A DNA stretch of 21,362 nt from a virus. Location: positions 1 through 21,362 of IMG/VR virus record IMGVR_UViG_3300037480_000117; one strand, 5' to 3'. This document shows, one piece after another, positions 4,672 through 10,456 of this stretch (positions are counted from its first letter, which is position 1; each line of letters starts with the position of its first letter). The position numbers and the translations under genes were made by a program. The notes below the pieces were generated by a model. That model made no database searches. It was given only the letters and a program-made list of their open reading frames with translations, and had not been told where the DNA came from.

Positions 4672-5021
4672 TGGCTTTCGTATTGACAGATGGCACCACA
4701 ACCGTTTCTTTTGAGCCGACGTATGGCTATAAGAACAAACAGAAACAACTAGTCAATCGTCATGAAGTGCGTGATGGTGGAATGTATCAATACCAGTTTT
4801 CTAATCCCAAGGCATGGAATTTACCATTGATCTATGTATCTTCAGCAAATGCTGAAACATTGAATGGTTGGTGGAGGGCTGGCACAGAGTTATCTATCAC
4901 GCCTCATGGATCTGTTGAGGTGACTACCGTTGGAATTATTAATAAGGAAGTTCCAATATCACAGAACATTAAACCTTCTGATACTGAATTTAAAGGTCGT
5001 ATCGATTTGAGGCAGTTTTAA
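4671..5021 (+). CDS. Distal tail / minor tail protein
   Basis: The 116-aa beta-rich protein starts in a TAATG overlap with the tape measure stop and itself ends in a TAATG overlap with the hub gene. It contains FVLTDGTTTVSFEPTYGYK, aromatic pairs such as YQYQFSNPKAW, and GWWRAGTELSITP, resembling small tail-tip proteins encoded directly after tape measures. It probably joins the tube end to the hub encoded by the next gene. No enzyme motif is seen. The assignment is by position and composition, and I cannot name a proven family. Confidence 0.6.
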   Translation: MAFVLTDGTTTVSFEPTYGYKNKQKQLVNRHEVRDGGMYQYQFSNPKAWNLPLIYVSSANAETLNGWWRAGTELSITPHGSVEVTTVGIINKEVPISQNIKPSDTEFKGRIDLRQF

Positions 5022-6940
5022 TGGTACATAGCGTCTCATCATGGTTTTATGAACAATCGATCAGTAAGAATCCAAAAGTTCTTAGACGGTGCTTGATAGG
5101 CAGTGATGATGTTTCTCAATATATGAAGCAATGGCCATCTATAAAACGTGATCATACTAAATTACGTCCCGGTAATATCAGTATAAATTTAGCAAATGAA
5201 GATCAAACATTCAATAATTTCATTGCTGATACACTCAACCTCACAAAATCAATACAACTAGATTTAGGTTTTGGTGGCAACCCTGCTGTCGTTGATAAAC
5301 TACAAGGCCATTGGATGGCTGATACAACTTCTGAGACTATAACATCAGGAGGGTTAGACCCTGATAGACATACAACAAGTCTTGGGCTTGATGTTTATGG
5401 CTCTATTGATAAATTACCAGCAGCAACCAATGCCAAGGTGATGGAATACTCTGCCTTCACTGGATCAGCTTATTTAGAACAAGCTTACAATGCAGCGCTC
5501 GATCCTGGCACTGATGTATGGGCCTATATGGGGTGGGCTAAGAGTACTGATATAGCTAGTTCTAGCCGTATAATGGAACGCAGCCACTACACTGTTTCAT
5601 GGTCTGATTCAATTATTCAAGTGGGGTTTAATAATGGTGGTGGTATATTTTTTGGGATATCTGATGATGGCGCTTTCTTAGATAGTGTTACCACAACTAG
5701 TGCCTATGATGATGGAGTTTATCATTTAATATCTTGCCTAAGAATTGAAAGTGCTACTAATCTCTATGTTGATAAAACTCTTGTTGAATCAGCCGCTATT
5801 AATAATGCAAATGGAACTTTGACGAATAGCCTAGCTACTCTACGTTTTGGCGCAAATAAGCATACTGCTAGTGCTCTGACAGATGGAACTTTGGCCATGT
5901 GGAGTGCAATTATTGGTGCGGTTCCTACAAATTATGATATTGGGAAAATTTATGACAACGAAATTGGATATCTTCAACCAGGGGGTAAGGAAGCCCCTGA
6001 TGATTGGGTTGCAGATCGCTTCAATCAAGTAGGAGAATTCCTCACTGTTTATGAAGGTGGCATAGGCTCTATTTCATTTGCCAGAGGTTTAGCTAAGATA
6101 CAAGCCGAGGATAAGTTCAACCCATTAAGCCATCGTGTTATTGGCAGTCGTGATACTCCCGTCCTAATGACAGATAGTTTCCTACCATCAGATGTTTTTT
6201 GGACAATATGCACATGCTATGGTGGGCTTTCTTCTGTCGAATCCACCAGTAACCCTGATATAGATTGGGCAGCGTTTCAAACCTGGGCAGCTGTGTTTTC
6301 AGCGGATTCTGTTTTTGTTAGCACAAAGTATGAAGGTGATAACTGTATCAAAGCGTTGAGAGACTTAGCACACTATACACAATCAACTATTGTCACTGAT
6401 CCAGCAAAAATAACACCTAATAGATTTTCAGGCATTGTGACCGGAGACGAGTTGCTTTTTGATGACAGTTCAATCATAGATAATACTGTAGTTATATCAG
6501 AGCAGACCATAATCAATAGGCAATATGTTTCAGGGGACTATGATCCTGATGTTAGCTCTTACGGAATAACTGTTGTGAAAGCAGATAGCGTTTCTATAAA
6601 TAGTTTTGGACTGCATGCCGATACTATGGAGAAGACCTCTATCTGGTACATCAACAGTTTATCAGCTGTGAACTTAGCAGATCGGAAAATTTCTTTTAAT
6701 AAAGTGCCAAGTACTGCGTATAGAATTGATCTTCCCCTCGTGCCTTTAACAAGGCAAATTGGGGATATTATAACTGTAGCAGATTCATCTCTCAGTGTTG
6801 CTAGTCATTCCATGAGAGTGATGGGCTACTCAATTAATATGGATAAGCTTGCGATGTCTTTATCAGCAGATGATACTCAATTGGCTAATCCTTTTCTACT
6901 TGACGTTTCAACTTTAGACGGACCGGAATTACTATTATGA
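5021..6940 (+). CDS. Hub-like tail protein with inserted LamG/ConA-like lectin domain
   Basis: The 639-aa protein has a two-part tail-hub frame. The first part is residues 1-88 (YMKQWPSIKRDHTKLRPGN, ISINLANEDQTFNNFI). The second part runs from about 325 to the end (VGEFLTVYEGGIGSISF, KIQAEDKFNPLSHRVIG, ICTCYGGLSS, LRDLAHYTQSTIV). Between them, residues about 95-316 have a beta-sandwich lectin look: GHWMADTTS, LGLDVYGS, WAYMGWAKS, YDDGVYHLISC, NLYVDKTLVESA, LRFGANKH and a closing YDNEIGY typical of LamG-type domains. The frame probably forms the tail tip. The inserted domain may bind surface glycan. Domain limits are estimates by eye. Confidence 0.65.
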   Translation: MVHSVSSWFYEQSISKNPKVLRRCLIGSDDVSQYMKQWPSIKRDHTKLRPGNISINLANEDQTFNNFIADTLNLTKSIQLDLGFGGNPAVVDKLQGHWMADTTSETITSGGLDPDRHTTSLGLDVYGSIDKLPAATNAKVMEYSAFTGSAYLEQAYNAALDPGTDVWAYMGWAKSTDIASSSRIMERSHYTVSWSDSIIQVGFNNGGGIFFGISDDGAFLDSVTTTSAYDDGVYHLISCLRIESATNLYVDKTLVESAAINNANGTLTNSLATLRFGANKHTASALTDGTLAMWSAIIGAVPTNYDIGKIYDNEIGYLQPGGKEAPDDWVADRFNQVGEFLTVYEGGIGSISFARGLAKIQAEDKFNPLSHRVIGSRDTPVLMTDSFLPSDVFWTICTCYGGLSSVESTSNPDIDWAAFQTWAAVFSADSVFVSTKYEGDNCIKALRDLAHYTQSTIVTDPAKITPNRFSGIVTGDELLFDDSSIIDNTVVISEQTIINRQYVSGDYDPDVSSYGITVVKADSVSINSFGLHADTMEKTSIWYINSLSAVNLADRKISFNKVPSTAYRIDLPLVPLTRQIGDIITVADSSLSVASHSMRVMGYSINMDKLAMSLSADDTQLANPFLLDVSTLDGPELLL

Positions 6941-7134
6941 TTATACGAATATTTGAATGTGATGTGGATGGGTGCCATGAACAAGAACAAGAAGAATATT
7001 ATGGCGCTGGAATAAATACCTGGGGATCATTTCAAGGGCTCTCTTTGAATGGGGTAGCTAATCCATTGCTTTGCTCAAAACATAAAATTGAGTTAGCGAA
7101 TAAGCTTGATGCTATGAAAGGAGAATTAAAATGA
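6937..7134 (+). CDS. Small Cys/His protein in the tail operon (65 aa)
   Basis: It starts at an ATG overlapping the hub stop (ATGA) and ends in an ATGA overlap with the fibre gene, so it is a real coupled gene. The 65-aa product carries C8, C13, H14, C46 and H49, which could form one zinc site (C-x4-C ... C-x2-H), plus a Tyr/Gly/Trp-rich middle (YYGAGINTWG). I do not recognise a family. Its position between hub and fibre genes suggests a tail-tip accessory or an assembly factor, by context only. Confidence 0.6.
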   Translation: MIIRIFECDVDGCHEQEQEEYYGAGINTWGSFQGLSLNGVANPLLCSKHKIELANKLDAMKGELK

Positions 7135-8132
7135 CTTGGGTAGATTTAAGCTCTGCTTTTGGTTTTGGATCGATACTTACATCCACTCAGCAACAACAAT
7201 TACGAGATAATATCACTGCACTAGCTAACGGTGATAGTGGAGCACCGGAGATTCAAACTGCTGCACTTGGCGCCAATATTGTTACATATGCAAAAATGTC
7301 TTTTAGCAATGATATCGACCAAGGAGATATCGCCGATAGTGCAATAGGCCAAGGTGAATTAAAAGAAACAATTCAGCAAACAAATTTTGGTAGTTCAACA
7401 GATGTACTTTTTACTGGTGCTGGGTATACGTTGGGATGGTCTGGTACTGTAAGTGGGACTGCAACTTGGAATGCATCTCTGTACACTCTCTCTACAAGTG
7501 CATGGGGAATACGATTTAATGAAATTTCAGGATCAGACACAGCCTATTTTCAAGCGAGATATCTACAAGCTTCACCCCCTTATGATTTAGGCGATGGGGA
7601 TATCCCTTTATTTCTTGAAGCAATTATCGACAATGGAAGTGGAGACATCCTATCTCTTAATTCAGCCGAAGATCCTGCCTGGGCGCACCATGGGCCTACT
7701 GATATAGGACCGGATCGCATAGACAAGCCAAGCGGAAGAGGATTCAAGAAGGTTTACGATTTCCCGCCTGGGTTAGAAAGGCCATTGCCTGAACAAACAC
7801 CTTTGCAAGCTAGAATTAATCATGAAAGAGCAAGGGCTGAGTTTATGAAAACGCCTGCGTTCAAGGAAATTGAAATAACAAAGGAATTTAAGAATTCAGA
7901 CATGGACATTTTTCCTCATCATTTCAAGAACAATGATTTAACCGGAAAAACAATTGTGTTATTAGATCCTGTTTCCCCTGTAATGGAAGAGATTATGTTG
8001 TTACGTGATTCAGGCGAAGATATAAATAAAATGATCATGGATGGGTATTTCAATATTGATGCTACCCCAATAATTCGCAATGGCCCACCGGGTATACAAA
8101 TTGTTTCAGTAGATTGGAAAAATACTCCATAG
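7131..8132 (+). CDS. Tail fibre / tip-like protein
   Basis: The 333-aa protein has an N-terminal segment often seen in phage fibre or tip proteins: WVDLSSAFGFGSILTSTQQQQLRDN followed by ANGDSGAPEIQTAALG and repeated short polar units (DIADSAIGQGEL). The middle (about residues 83-180) is Ser/Thr/Gly/Trp-rich and beta-like. The C-terminal 140 residues are different: Pro- and charge-rich (FPPGLERPLPEQTPLQ), then a compact mixed domain ending in IVSVDWKNTP. The N-terminus presumably docks to the tip. What the C-terminal part does is unknown. It precedes the lysis genes by 10 bases. Confidence 0.6.
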   Translation: MTWVDLSSAFGFGSILTSTQQQQLRDNITALANGDSGAPEIQTAALGANIVTYAKMSFSNDIDQGDIADSAIGQGELKETIQQTNFGSSTDVLFTGAGYTLGWSGTVSGTATWNASLYTLSTSAWGIRFNEISGSDTAYFQARYLQASPPYDLGDGDIPLFLEAIIDNGSGDILSLNSAEDPAWAHHGPTDIGPDRIDKPSGRGFKKVYDFPPGLERPLPEQTPLQARINHERARAEFMKTPAFKEIEITKEFKNSDMDIFPHHFKNNDLTGKTIVLLDPVSPVMEEIMLLRDSGEDINKMIMDGYFNIDATPIIRNGPPGIQIVSVDWKNTP

Positions 8133-8142
8133 GAGAATACAA

Positions 8143-8733
8143 ATGATATTGGTCAGCATAGGGCATCATGAAGATAAGCCGGGGGCATGCTTTGACGGTA
8201 TCTGTGAGTATGACCTGGCCATCAAATGGGCTGAGAAGATAGTTCAGCACTTAAAAGACAAAGGGCGGCTAGTGCCTGTTGGTGTGCTTAAGAAAAAAGT
8301 CAACTTTATTAATTCCCGCAATGTGGTACTTGCTGTGGAGATTCATTTCAACAGTTATAATGTATGGAAGGATCTGAATAAGGATGGTGTTGTCGATGTT
8401 GATGAATTAAAGCCTGCTGGACGGGGTAGTGAAACGCTTTACTACCCAAAGAGTAAGCTAGGCAAAGCCGCAGCTGAATTGATCCAAGATTCAATGGGCA
8501 TGATCATGGTGCCCAGTCGTGGCATCAAAGAGGGTTGGTATCGTATGGAGCCAAAGAACGGGCCTGATTACTTCCTGGCGAAGACAAACTGCACTGCACT
8601 GATCATCGAGCCTGAGTTCATTGATAACATTGGTATGCTTGCAGAGAACCAGGATGAGTGCTGTGAGGCGATTGCCAGTGCATTGATAGGCGCTGAGTTG
8701 TTGATCAAGAAAGAAAAGAGCAAATTGATATAG
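8143..8733 (+). CDS. N-acetylmuramoyl-L-alanine amidase endolysin (Amidase_3) with EF-hand loop
   Basis: The 196-aa protein has the Amidase_3 layout. GHHEDKPGA at 7-15 supplies zinc ligand H8, E22 in CEYDL is the second ligand, and EIHFNS at 66-71 supplies H68. EPEFIDN at 156-162 matches the catalytic Glu region (E..FxsN). It would cut the amide bond between MurNAc and the stem peptide. There is no signal peptide, so release needs the downstream holin. Residues 77-88 form an exact EF-hand loop (D77, N79, D81, G82, D85, E88) just after the third zinc ligand, suggesting calcium dependence. A ribosome site (aggagaa) precedes the ATG. Confidence 0.88.
   Translation: MILVSIGHHEDKPGACFDGICEYDLAIKWAEKIVQHLKDKGRLVPVGVLKKKVNFINSRNVVLAVEIHFNSYNVWKDLNKDGVVDVDELKPAGRGSETLYYPKSKLGKAAAELIQDSMGMIMVPSRGIKEGWYRMEPKNGPDYFLAKTNCTALIIEPEFIDNIGMLAENQDECCEAIASALIGAELLIKKEKSKLI
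8371..8406 (+). other. EF-hand calcium-binding loop encoded within the endolysin
   Basis: These 36 bases encode residues 77-88, D-L-N-K-D-G-V-V-D-V-D-E. All canonical loop positions are present: Asp 1, Asn 3, Asp 5, Gly 6, hydrophobic 8, Asp 9 and Glu 12. Single EF-hand loops are known in a few calcium-dependent endolysins. Calcium binding here is inferred. Confidence 0.75.
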
Positions 8734-8743
8734 GAGAACTGAC

Positions 8744-9313
8744 ATGAAGCTATGGAATATTGTTAAAAATGTTGGCGCTGGAATTATCAAAGAAGTTGTC
8801 CCTGGCGGCGGTTTATTAATCGGCGCTATTAATGAATTCTTACCCGATGATAAAAAACTTTCTGATTCTGCTACAGGCGAAGATGTTAAGACAGCCATTA
8901 GCAAGCTTACCCCTGCACAGCAAGCATCTATAATGGAAAAAGAATTTGATGTTGATATTACTCAAATTCAAGAATCGAATTCTACACTGCGGGCAATGCT
9001 TGAATCTGATACTAAAAATCCACAAACAACACGTCCATATATTGCTAAACACTCTTTTCATGTGATTGCTATTGCTGTAATTGCAGCCGTATTAATGTGG
9101 TCTTATGGCGTTCTGATAAAAGATAAAGATCTTGTTACGGCAGTTATGGACGGCTGGCCTTTTATATTATCCGTCATAGGTCCATTTGTAACTTTATTAT
9201 GGGCTTATTTTGGCGTGTTGAAGCAAGAGCATAGAAGTAGGCTTAATGCTGCACAAGGTAAGGAAACACCATCCATTATATCTGGGTTACTATCCGTAAT
9301 AAGGGGGAAATGA
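8744..9313 (+). CDS. 3TM-type phage holin
   Basis: The 189-aa protein has an amphipathic Gly-rich N-terminus (VGAGIIKEVVPGGGLLIGAI), a charged middle with LTPAQQASIMEKEFD, then the pattern NPQTTRPYIAKHSF before two clear membrane helices at about 106-125 and 138-159, and a basic C-terminus. This matches the 3TM phage holin family (PF11351-like). The first membrane element would be the N-terminal Gly-rich helix. It lies 10 bases after the endolysin behind an aggagaa site, as in a lysis cassette. It would permeabilise the inner membrane to release the cytoplasmic endolysin. Timing cannot be deduced. Confidence 0.78.
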   Translation: MKLWNIVKNVGAGIIKEVVPGGGLLIGAINEFLPDDKKLSDSATGEDVKTAISKLTPAQQASIMEKEFDVDITQIQESNSTLRAMLESDTKNPQTTRPYIAKHSFHVIAIAVIAAVLMWSYGVLIKDKDLVTAVMDGWPFILSVIGPFVTLLWAYFGVLKQEHRSRLNAAQGKETPSIISGLLSVIRGK

Positions 9314-9314
9314 T

Positions 9315-9707
9315 ATGCTTAAATATATTGTAGCAATACTATTGCTGTTGATTCTTGTACCTAATCAAGCACAGGCCGGGGATCATGACCACGGTGATAC
9401 CATTATCAACAACTACTATGAGCAGCCAGCATCAACTATGAGCGCAACACCGACGATTATTAGTAATGTACATGGGTTAAATTCAAGTGCATTGGCAGCT
9501 GGAATGGCGGCTGGTGATACTATTAACTTTGATCCTAATAGTCAGAAAACTCAGATTGGTGGTGGTGTTGGGTTTCATAATAGCTATATTGGATTTGCTG
9601 CTGCGATAGGTAAAAAAGTTGATAATACATTTTACAATGGTAATCTTATCAAGCTGGAAGGTGTGAAAGATCCGGTCGTGGGTATTGGCTTTGTTAGGAA
9701 CTTCTGA
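9315..9707 (+). CDS. Secreted mini-protein with YadA-anchor-like C-terminus
   Basis: The 130-aa protein has a clear signal peptide (Lys3, hydrophobic core 4-15, AQA at 19-21, cleavage before G22). The mature start GDHDHGDTIINNYYEQ is His-rich. From about residue 58 the sequence follows the trimeric-autotransporter anchor pattern: a helix SALAAGMAAGD, then strands QIGGGVGF, YIGFAAAIGKKVDN, FYNGNLIKLEG and VVGIGFVRNF, ending in a terminal Phe as outer-membrane barrel proteins do. A 12-strand trimeric barrel with a very short passenger is predicted. The gene starts one base after the holin stop. The next gene overlaps as TGATG. It lacks a lipobox. Family assignment is by eye. Confidence 0.6.
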   Translation: MLKYIVAILLLLILVPNQAQAGDHDHGDTIINNYYEQPASTMSATPTIISNVHGLNSSALAAGMAAGDTINFDPNSQKTQIGGGVGFHNSYIGFAAAIGKKVDNTFYNGNLIKLEGVKDPVVGIGFVRNF

Positions 9708-9985
9708 TGAAAGCATTAAAAATAATACTGGATTTCCTAGCCACTGTACTCACCAATAAGGTATTCATTGGCTTTTTATTCGTAGCACTAGCAGGTGGCA
9801 ACGTCTACCAATTTGTTGATCCAATGGCAGAGAAAGCAACACCTAAACCTATTGTCATTGAGATTGGTGATGAAGAGCATTCTCACAATGAGTATGCCAA
9901 GAAGCATTCACACCCCTTTGCAAGAGAAGGACACAGGCATCTTACATCGGATAAGATGGCTAAGGATCATGGGTATGTAGATTAG
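9707..9985 (+). CDS. Inner-membrane protein with His-rich HxH periplasmic tail
   Basis: The 92-aa protein has a basic N-terminus, a hydrophobic region at residues 5-36 whose core (about 18-34, KVFIGFLFVALAGGNVY) can span the membrane, then a periplasmic tail of about 55 residues. The tail has three HxH motifs (H58-S-H60, H67-S-H69, H77-R-H79), spaced with EYAKK and PFARE repeats. HxH motifs along trimeric phage needles bind iron, a known feature of several fibres. Its start overlaps the upstream secreted gene (TGATG), so the two are co-expressed. It sits at the spanin position of the cassette but has neither coiled coil nor an embedded lipoprotein gene. The function is unknown. Confidence 0.6.
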   Translation: MKALKIILDFLATVLTNKVFIGFLFVALAGGNVYQFVDPMAEKATPKPIVIEIGDEEHSHNEYAKKHSHPFAREGHRHLTSDKMAKDHGYVD

Positions 9986-10255: not shown

Positions 10256-10456
10256 TTACTTATCCCCCATCGCCTTGATCAACTTATCAGTTCGTTTGTC
10301 TGTCTTGTATTCATTAACTACGAGCAAGGCATGAATAATACCGGGCACCCATATCAGACAAGTCAATATCACATTGAAAAATGTAGTGAAGAAACCACCT
10401 TTGCTTATCATCACTGCTAATGGTGGAAAAAGAATTGCTAGTAAATATCTCATCAT
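10256..10456 (-). CDS. Pmp3/YqaE-family membrane proteolipid
   Basis: The 66-aa protein matches the Pmp3 (UPF0057) family: RYLLAILFPPLAVM, a short hydrophilic turn with GGFF, then NVILTCLIWVPGIIHALLVV. Two membrane helices lie at about 3-18 and 25-46, and a charged C-terminus (YKTDKRTDKLIKAMGDK) follows. Family members are usually 50-60 aa stress-induced membrane proteins in bacteria, fungi and plants, linked to membrane potential and salt tolerance. A copy in a phage operon could modify the host membrane during infection, which is inference. The ribosome site is AGGAAA before ATG-ATG. Either ATG could be used. Confidence 0.85.
   Translation of the reverse strand: MMRYLLAILFPPLAVMISKGGFFTTFFNVILTCLIWVPGIIHALLVVNEYKTDKRTDKLIKAMGDK

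Follow-up and report, generated by a model that had tools for sequence, protein, structure and literature searches.

Two-component spanins such as Rz/Rz1 of phage lambda are encoded by two small overlapping genes after the endolysin and holin genes, and combine an inner-membrane protein, which has an N-terminal helix and a periplasmic tail, with an outer-membrane partner that carries a lipobox (Kongari 2018, PMC6139136). In the same survey, 91 of 677 genomes of phages with Gram-negative hosts (~13%) had no recognisable spanin, and several of these spanin-less genomes lacked lipoprotein genes in all frames; an outer-membrane protein (OMP) serving as o-spanin was raised as possible, a case that lay outside the survey criteria (PMC6139136).

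The locus described here lies in a 21,362-base IMG/VR virus record (G000), which is called the window below; it is a fragment of ~21.4 kb and the genome is incomplete. Like a two-component spanin, the locus has two small overlapping genes after endolysin and holin genes, an inner-membrane protein with N-terminal helix and periplasmic tail together with a putative outer-membrane partner and, in the inner-membrane partner of its relative L002, a proline-rich stretch. Unlike such a spanin, the outer-membrane partner in the window bears an ordinary signal peptide instead of one with a lipobox and is presumed to form a barrel, the outer-membrane gene comes first in the pair, and the 92-aa inner-membrane protein has no evident coiled coil (the partner of a further relative, L012, has a charged helical tail).

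With the YadA anchor (PF03895) of trimeric autotransporters, the 130-aa product of the first gene (P0001) shares its length, a helix followed by strands and a terminal aromatic residue, and its mean similarity to 22 true anchors is above chance; it differs from these anchors in scoring far below the Pfam cut-off, in its very short passenger, in its unusual last strand (VRNF) and in the two-gene setting within a lysis cassette. Lambda Lom, lambda Bor and T5 Llp are likewise small phage-encoded outer-membrane proteins near lysis genes. Proteins of this type are 8-stranded barrels or lipoproteins, and they are encoded by single genes, whereas the first gene of the window's pair is coupled to an inner-membrane gene. 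Finally, the L002 partner recalls the generally known geometry of TonB/TolA, with an N-terminal helix, an (IIIEPAPA)n proline-rich spacer and a distal tip that might extend to an outer-membrane barrel, but it is much shorter and has no Pfam match at all.

Organisation of the lysis cassette

A preliminary description of the locus had claimed two overlapping genes positioned after an endolysin and a holin gene, and both points are borne out: the ORFs at 9315-9707 (+) and 9707-9985 (+) exist and share 1 nt within TGATG, and an Amidase_3 gene followed by the gene of a holin-like membrane protein lies directly upstream. The cassette has the following features:

8143-8733, + strand: endolysin, N-acetylmuramoyl-L-alanine amidase (Amidase_3; Pfam PF01520, E = 2.3e-13; PHROG 435 endolysin, E = 2.5e-29)
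8744-9313, + strand: holin-like protein of 189 aa with two C-terminal membrane segments (hydropathy peaks 107-125 and 141-159)
9303-9307, + strand: putative ribosome-binding site GGGGG of the 130-aa gene (sequence TAATAAGGGGGAAATGATATG)
9315-9707, + strand: 130-aa putative outer-membrane protein P0001, with signal peptide, short His-started passenger, helix, ~4 beta strands and C-terminal Phe
9315-9377, + strand: Sec signal peptide, residues 1-21, ending in NQAQA before G, with no lipobox cysteine (KD19 peak 1-19; lipobox scan negative)
9384-9419, + strand: HxH-x5-NNYY motif close to the mature N-terminus, HDHGDTIINNYY (from homologue comparison)
9483-9704, + strand: YadA-anchor-like region with predicted helix 57-66, strands 78-88, 93-107 and 110-127, and terminal Phe (low-confidence AF2 model, pLDDT 42)
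9705-9709, + strand: TGATG stop/start overlap (translational coupling), part of a TTC-TGATG junction common to the window, L002 and L012
9707-9985, + strand: 92-aa inner-membrane protein P0002, probably N-in/C-out, with periplasmic tail (one KD19 peak, 10-28)
9878-9940, + strand: three HxH motifs at residues 58, 67 and 76, with a period of 9 (tail-shuffle test)

The pair is linked to endolysin and holin-like genes, which is one of the marks of membership among the spanins. The 189-aa membrane protein is probably a holin because single members of its family (51 relatives in viral contigs) match the holin family PHROG 3427 (best E = 2.8e-4) and PF11351, GTA_holin_3TM (E = 0.0013); the window's protein itself reaches E = 0.2 against these families. 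In annotated Vibrio and Oceanospirillum phages, insofar as the records carry annotation, the gene of its homologue immediately follows one for an endolysin of the peptidase M15 type. The holin upstream of the L002 pair matches both families clearly (PF11351, 3.8e-22; PHROG 3427, 1.3e-34), and profile comparison of the window's holin with the L002 holin does not support a single common family.

Several other genes in or around such cassettes were recorded. In L006, L007, L008, L013-L015, L017, L019, L034, L039, L060 and L061, the window's holin family is followed by a recurring set consisting of a protein of 155-163 aa with multiple membrane segments, a short TM protein and a TM-coil protein of 90-126 aa; these are probably further holin-type genes. 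Shortly downstream of the window's lysis genes, on the opposite strand (10256-10456, -), there is a phage-encoded Pmp3/UPF0057 membrane proteolipid (PF01679, E = 1.2e-14; PHROG 38199, E = 1.8e-16), and the tail region encodes a 639-aa protein (5021-6937, +) with a sub-threshold match to Laminin_G_3 (concanavalin-like; residues 162-291, E = 1.2e-5).

The first gene and its possible relation to YadA-type anchors

The 130-aa protein consists of a hydrophobic leader up to the NQAQA site, a passenger of ~33 residues, a helix and strands with Phe at the very end, and its short mature N-terminus reads GDHDHGDTIINNYY. The signal peptide, the very short passenger and the terminal Phe listed in the preliminary description can all be seen in the sequence, and the leader has no lipobox. 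All three homologues have a His-rich stretch and then NNYY, and the spacer is longer in L012; as a DNA pattern, HxH-x5-NNYY is expected 0 times by chance in the window. Between P0001 and its L002 homologue, the differences at the three codon positions are 18/10/40, with a dN of 0.11, a dS of 0.6 and a dN/dS of ~0.17: the first gene is truly coding and under purifying selection. An antisense ORF (9483-9716, -) was ruled out as a gene because the distribution of differences over codon positions speaks for the + frame. Within P0001/P0006, conservation is lower in the passenger (codons 41-60, 65% nucleotide identity), the predicted strands 79-88 and 90-99 show a strong alternation in hydropathy, and the last strand (end VRNF) has Arg at position -2.

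The YadA-anchor-like barrel that had been proposed for this protein stands in part. A helix and strands are predicted at low confidence and the terminal Phe is there; the score against PF03895 is 12 bits with a cut-off of 22.7 (E = 0.23) and is thus below the curated threshold, and in a YadA_anchor search over three virus records P0001 is the sole match (12.2 bits, E = 0.0044). For closer comparison, 22 true YadA-type anchors from cellular genomes served as the reference set. With a local HMM of these anchors, P0001 could not be told apart from shuffled versions of itself. In an end-to-end profile alignment fixed at the C-terminus, P0001 scored 18.9 versus 7.4 +/- 4.6 for shuffles, 4 of 400 of which reach its score (shuffle controls, here and below, take no account of generic barrel-like patterns); it also scored above all other F/W/Y-ending phage ORF tails in the set, with only the L002 homologue near, and the true anchors reach 80-129 on the same profile, in sample. 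The mean pairwise score of P0001 to the 22 anchors is above that of 1000/1000 shuffles with BLOSUM45 and 999/1000 with BLOSUM62, and the pairwise alignment is collinear up to the terminal Phe. The L012 homologue has no anchor signal.

Structure prediction gave a similar picture: the monomer AF2 model of P0001 has a helix and strands at low confidence (pLDDT 42) and that of the L012 homologue is poorer (pLDDT 36). Fold comparison of the low-confidence P0001 model returned nothing significant, and the weak, tied matches include the trimeric-autotransporter anchors 3emo, 2gr7, 2gr8 and AtaA 9vnj (Z = 3.0, rmsd 2.6, 51 residues); a PDB sequence search with the 130-aa protein yielded chance-level matches only. 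It is plausible, but not proven, that the 130-aa protein is a distant YadA-type anchor with a predicted barrel.

The second gene

Hydropathy analysis of the 92-aa protein shows a single hydrophobic segment (KD19 peak 10-28) with a net charge of +1 before and -1 after it, in agreement with the earlier assignment of a single inner-membrane helix with a periplasmic tail (N-in/C-out by charge). Over residues 1-35 it shares 51% identity with the L002 partner, and the membrane segment is the best-conserved part of the protein; the 3' parts of the inner-membrane genes of the three pairs gave no confident alignment among each other. In the His-rich tail, the three HxH motifs recur every 9 residues exactly, and three equally spaced HxH occurred in 0.013% of 100,000 tail shuffles. 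A PDB search with the 92-aa protein (phmmer) found no solved structure.

It had also been suggested that the His-rich segments of the two proteins meet through a metal ion. YadA-type proteins export their N-terminal passenger to the cell surface. Such a bridge is doubtful because this topology places the passenger outside the cell and the partner tail in the periplasm, and because the L012 partner has no HxH; we therefore rejected it as the leading idea.

Relatives and transfer of the pair

The pair was found in three genomes only: the window, L002 (record G001, 44.8 kb) and L012 (record G010, 57.6 kb). The first gene of L002 is 81% identical to that of the window and the partner has diverged; the pair directly follows a clear GTA-type holin, whose sequence family differs from that of the window's holin. 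In tblastn comparisons, G000 and G001 have nothing in common beyond the pair and a helicase (33% identical), and blastn returns a single 470-bp match (82%) that begins shortly upstream of the first gene and ends within the second. This pattern of matches indicates that phages which otherwise differ have exchanged the pair as a unit, and that it has kept its place after the holin. The inner-membrane partner of L002 (6399-6734, +) has two HxH motifs and a proline-rich spacer, (IIIEPAPA)n, containing three IIIEPAPA-like repeats in tandem; the 92-aa version in the window has no such repeats, and the length of the spacer therefore varies.

In L012, a P0003-type holin is followed by four other small genes and then by a diverged pair in the same order. 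The product of its first gene (HGGHSHDIDIDNSTTNNYY...) ends in Phe and is probably homologous to that of the 130-aa gene, judged from a single-pair BLASTP match (E = 0.004) together with the architecture. Its partner is a protein of 134 aa with one membrane segment, and the stop/start junction TTC-TGATG is identical in 3/3 pairs. The lysis region of L012 also encodes a 193-aa secreted protein (6961-7542, +) that looks like fibronectin III, and there is a similar one in L049.

Searches for further copies were negative throughout. Among 50 records with or near the window's holin family, no further one matched the first-gene profile. A tblastn search of both proteins against 50,697 phage records gave no real match; the match H1 (E = 5) was dismissed as chance. 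Four approaches applied to IMG/VR identified L002 as the only relative of the ~81% type of the first gene, and the other 19 sequence-pattern matches were out of frame or unrelated. A peptide scan of cellular genomes found no prophage copy, a profile search of 369 cellular genomes of one class (a set without a positive control) found no copy, and plasmids had no copy of the pair.

Lipoprotein genes in the carriers and their relatives

Lipoprotein genes were searched for with an all-frame scan for lipobox proteins that recovers lambda Rz1, lambda Bor and T7 18.7. The absence of an Rz/Rz1-type lipoprotein, claimed previously, holds throughout the window: the scan finds no lipobox protein in any frame of this 21.4-kb fragment, and an outer-membrane lipoprotein subunit, one of the marks of two-component spanins, is seen neither in the 130-aa protein nor elsewhere in the window. 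L002 and L012, which carry the pair, have no convincing lipoprotein gene either. In G001 (44.8 kb), there is no lipobox protein with a ribosome-binding site in any frame; this record encodes both terminase subunits, tail and replication genes, and is probably only near-complete because no recognised portal or capsid gene was seen. In G010 (57.6 kb), one lipobox match was found that looks spurious.

A complementary distribution of lipoprotein and pair is unsupported, as many relatives are without both. G007, G018, G024 and VP16C, which share the window's holin family, have neither a convincing lipoprotein nor the pair; the absence of a lipoprotein is therefore a trait of the group and not a proof of replacement. 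In L036, a relative with this holin family, an ORF for a 43-aa o-spanin-like lipoprotein (6564-6695, +; lipobox LSAC) overlaps the end of the holin gene; after it comes a protein of 121 aa that looks helical and shows no evident membrane segment. The L036 lipoprotein suggests that the slot after the holin is able to hold an outer-membrane lysis factor.

Possible functions of the pair

Our preferred, though tentative, reading of the pair is a spanin-like module for outer-membrane disruption in which an outer-membrane protein replaces the lipoprotein o-spanin. It is based on gene order, coupling, the lipobox-less signal peptide, the membrane segment, purifying selection on the first gene, co-transfer and the lack of a detectable lipoprotein gene. 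The preliminary description had already proposed for the pair either the outer-membrane step of lysis or a change of the cell surface that blocks superinfection: the position in the spanin slot, the translational coupling and the recurrence behind a different holin agree with the first proposal, and the lysis role itself is predicted from position. Morons also adjoin lysis genes, as lambda bor adjoins Rz, and this counts against the spanin-like reading. In the proposed mechanism, both genes would be expressed late, together with endolysin and holin, and their product amounts would be coupled via TGATG. The 130-aa protein would be exported by Sec and form a trimeric, YadA-anchor-like barrel in the outer membrane, while the 92-aa protein would have its N-terminal helix in the inner membrane and its proline/histidine-rich tail in the periplasm. 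Once holin and endolysin have removed the peptidoglycan barrier, the two proteins could meet and join the membranes or tear the outer membrane.

The main rival is receptor blocking or a surface change: the 130-aa protein in the outer membrane would mask the receptor late, exclude superinfection and spare the loss of progeny on debris and sister cells, with the inner-membrane protein as an accessory. Receptor blocking and superinfection exclusion are known for T5 Llp, Cor and Lom, and most phage-encoded outer-membrane proteins with a known function belong to this type; the neighbourhood of bor and Rz in lambda fits too, as does the less conserved passenger of P0001/P0006, given that YadA-type proteins usually show their passenger outside. 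However, an inner-membrane partner, coupled in all three pairs, would be superfluous for a receptor blocker, the pair stands directly behind two different holins, and no sigma-70-like promoter of its own precedes it on the + strand. We regard this explanation as unlikely.

Quite improbable is a role in accessory lysis control, with the inner-membrane protein tuning the holin in an antiholin-like manner and the secreted partner remaining periplasmic and forming no barrel. The slot after the holin is often occupied by other small membrane proteins in relatives (multi-TM, TM-coil), and it is the membrane segment that is best conserved in the 92-aa protein; yet signal peptide, alternating strands and C-terminal Phe better fit an outer-membrane protein, and the pair is found behind holins of differing sequence families. 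That the two are virion or tail accessory proteins, an idea that comes from the three equally spaced HxH, since metal-binding trimeric fibres and spikes of phages typically carry such motifs, and from the tail genes just upstream of the lysis genes, is highly improbable, as a signal peptide and an N-terminal membrane helix are unexpected in virion parts and the phmmer search returned no solved structure for the 92-aa protein.

Within the spanin-like reading, a more specific proposal, and a somewhat unlikely one, is that this is the first spanin-type pair that joins a barrel derived from an autotransporter anchor to a proline/histidine-rich partner of TonB-like geometry, and thus a lipoprotein-free route; a literature search, its scope mostly outside subscription papers, found no description of such an outer/inner-membrane pair. 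The pair is a small and concrete candidate for the OMP-as-o-spanin case of Kongari 2018, and it offers a search pattern for further cases: a signal peptide, a C-terminal Phe, TGATG and a single-helix partner, adjoining a holin gene.
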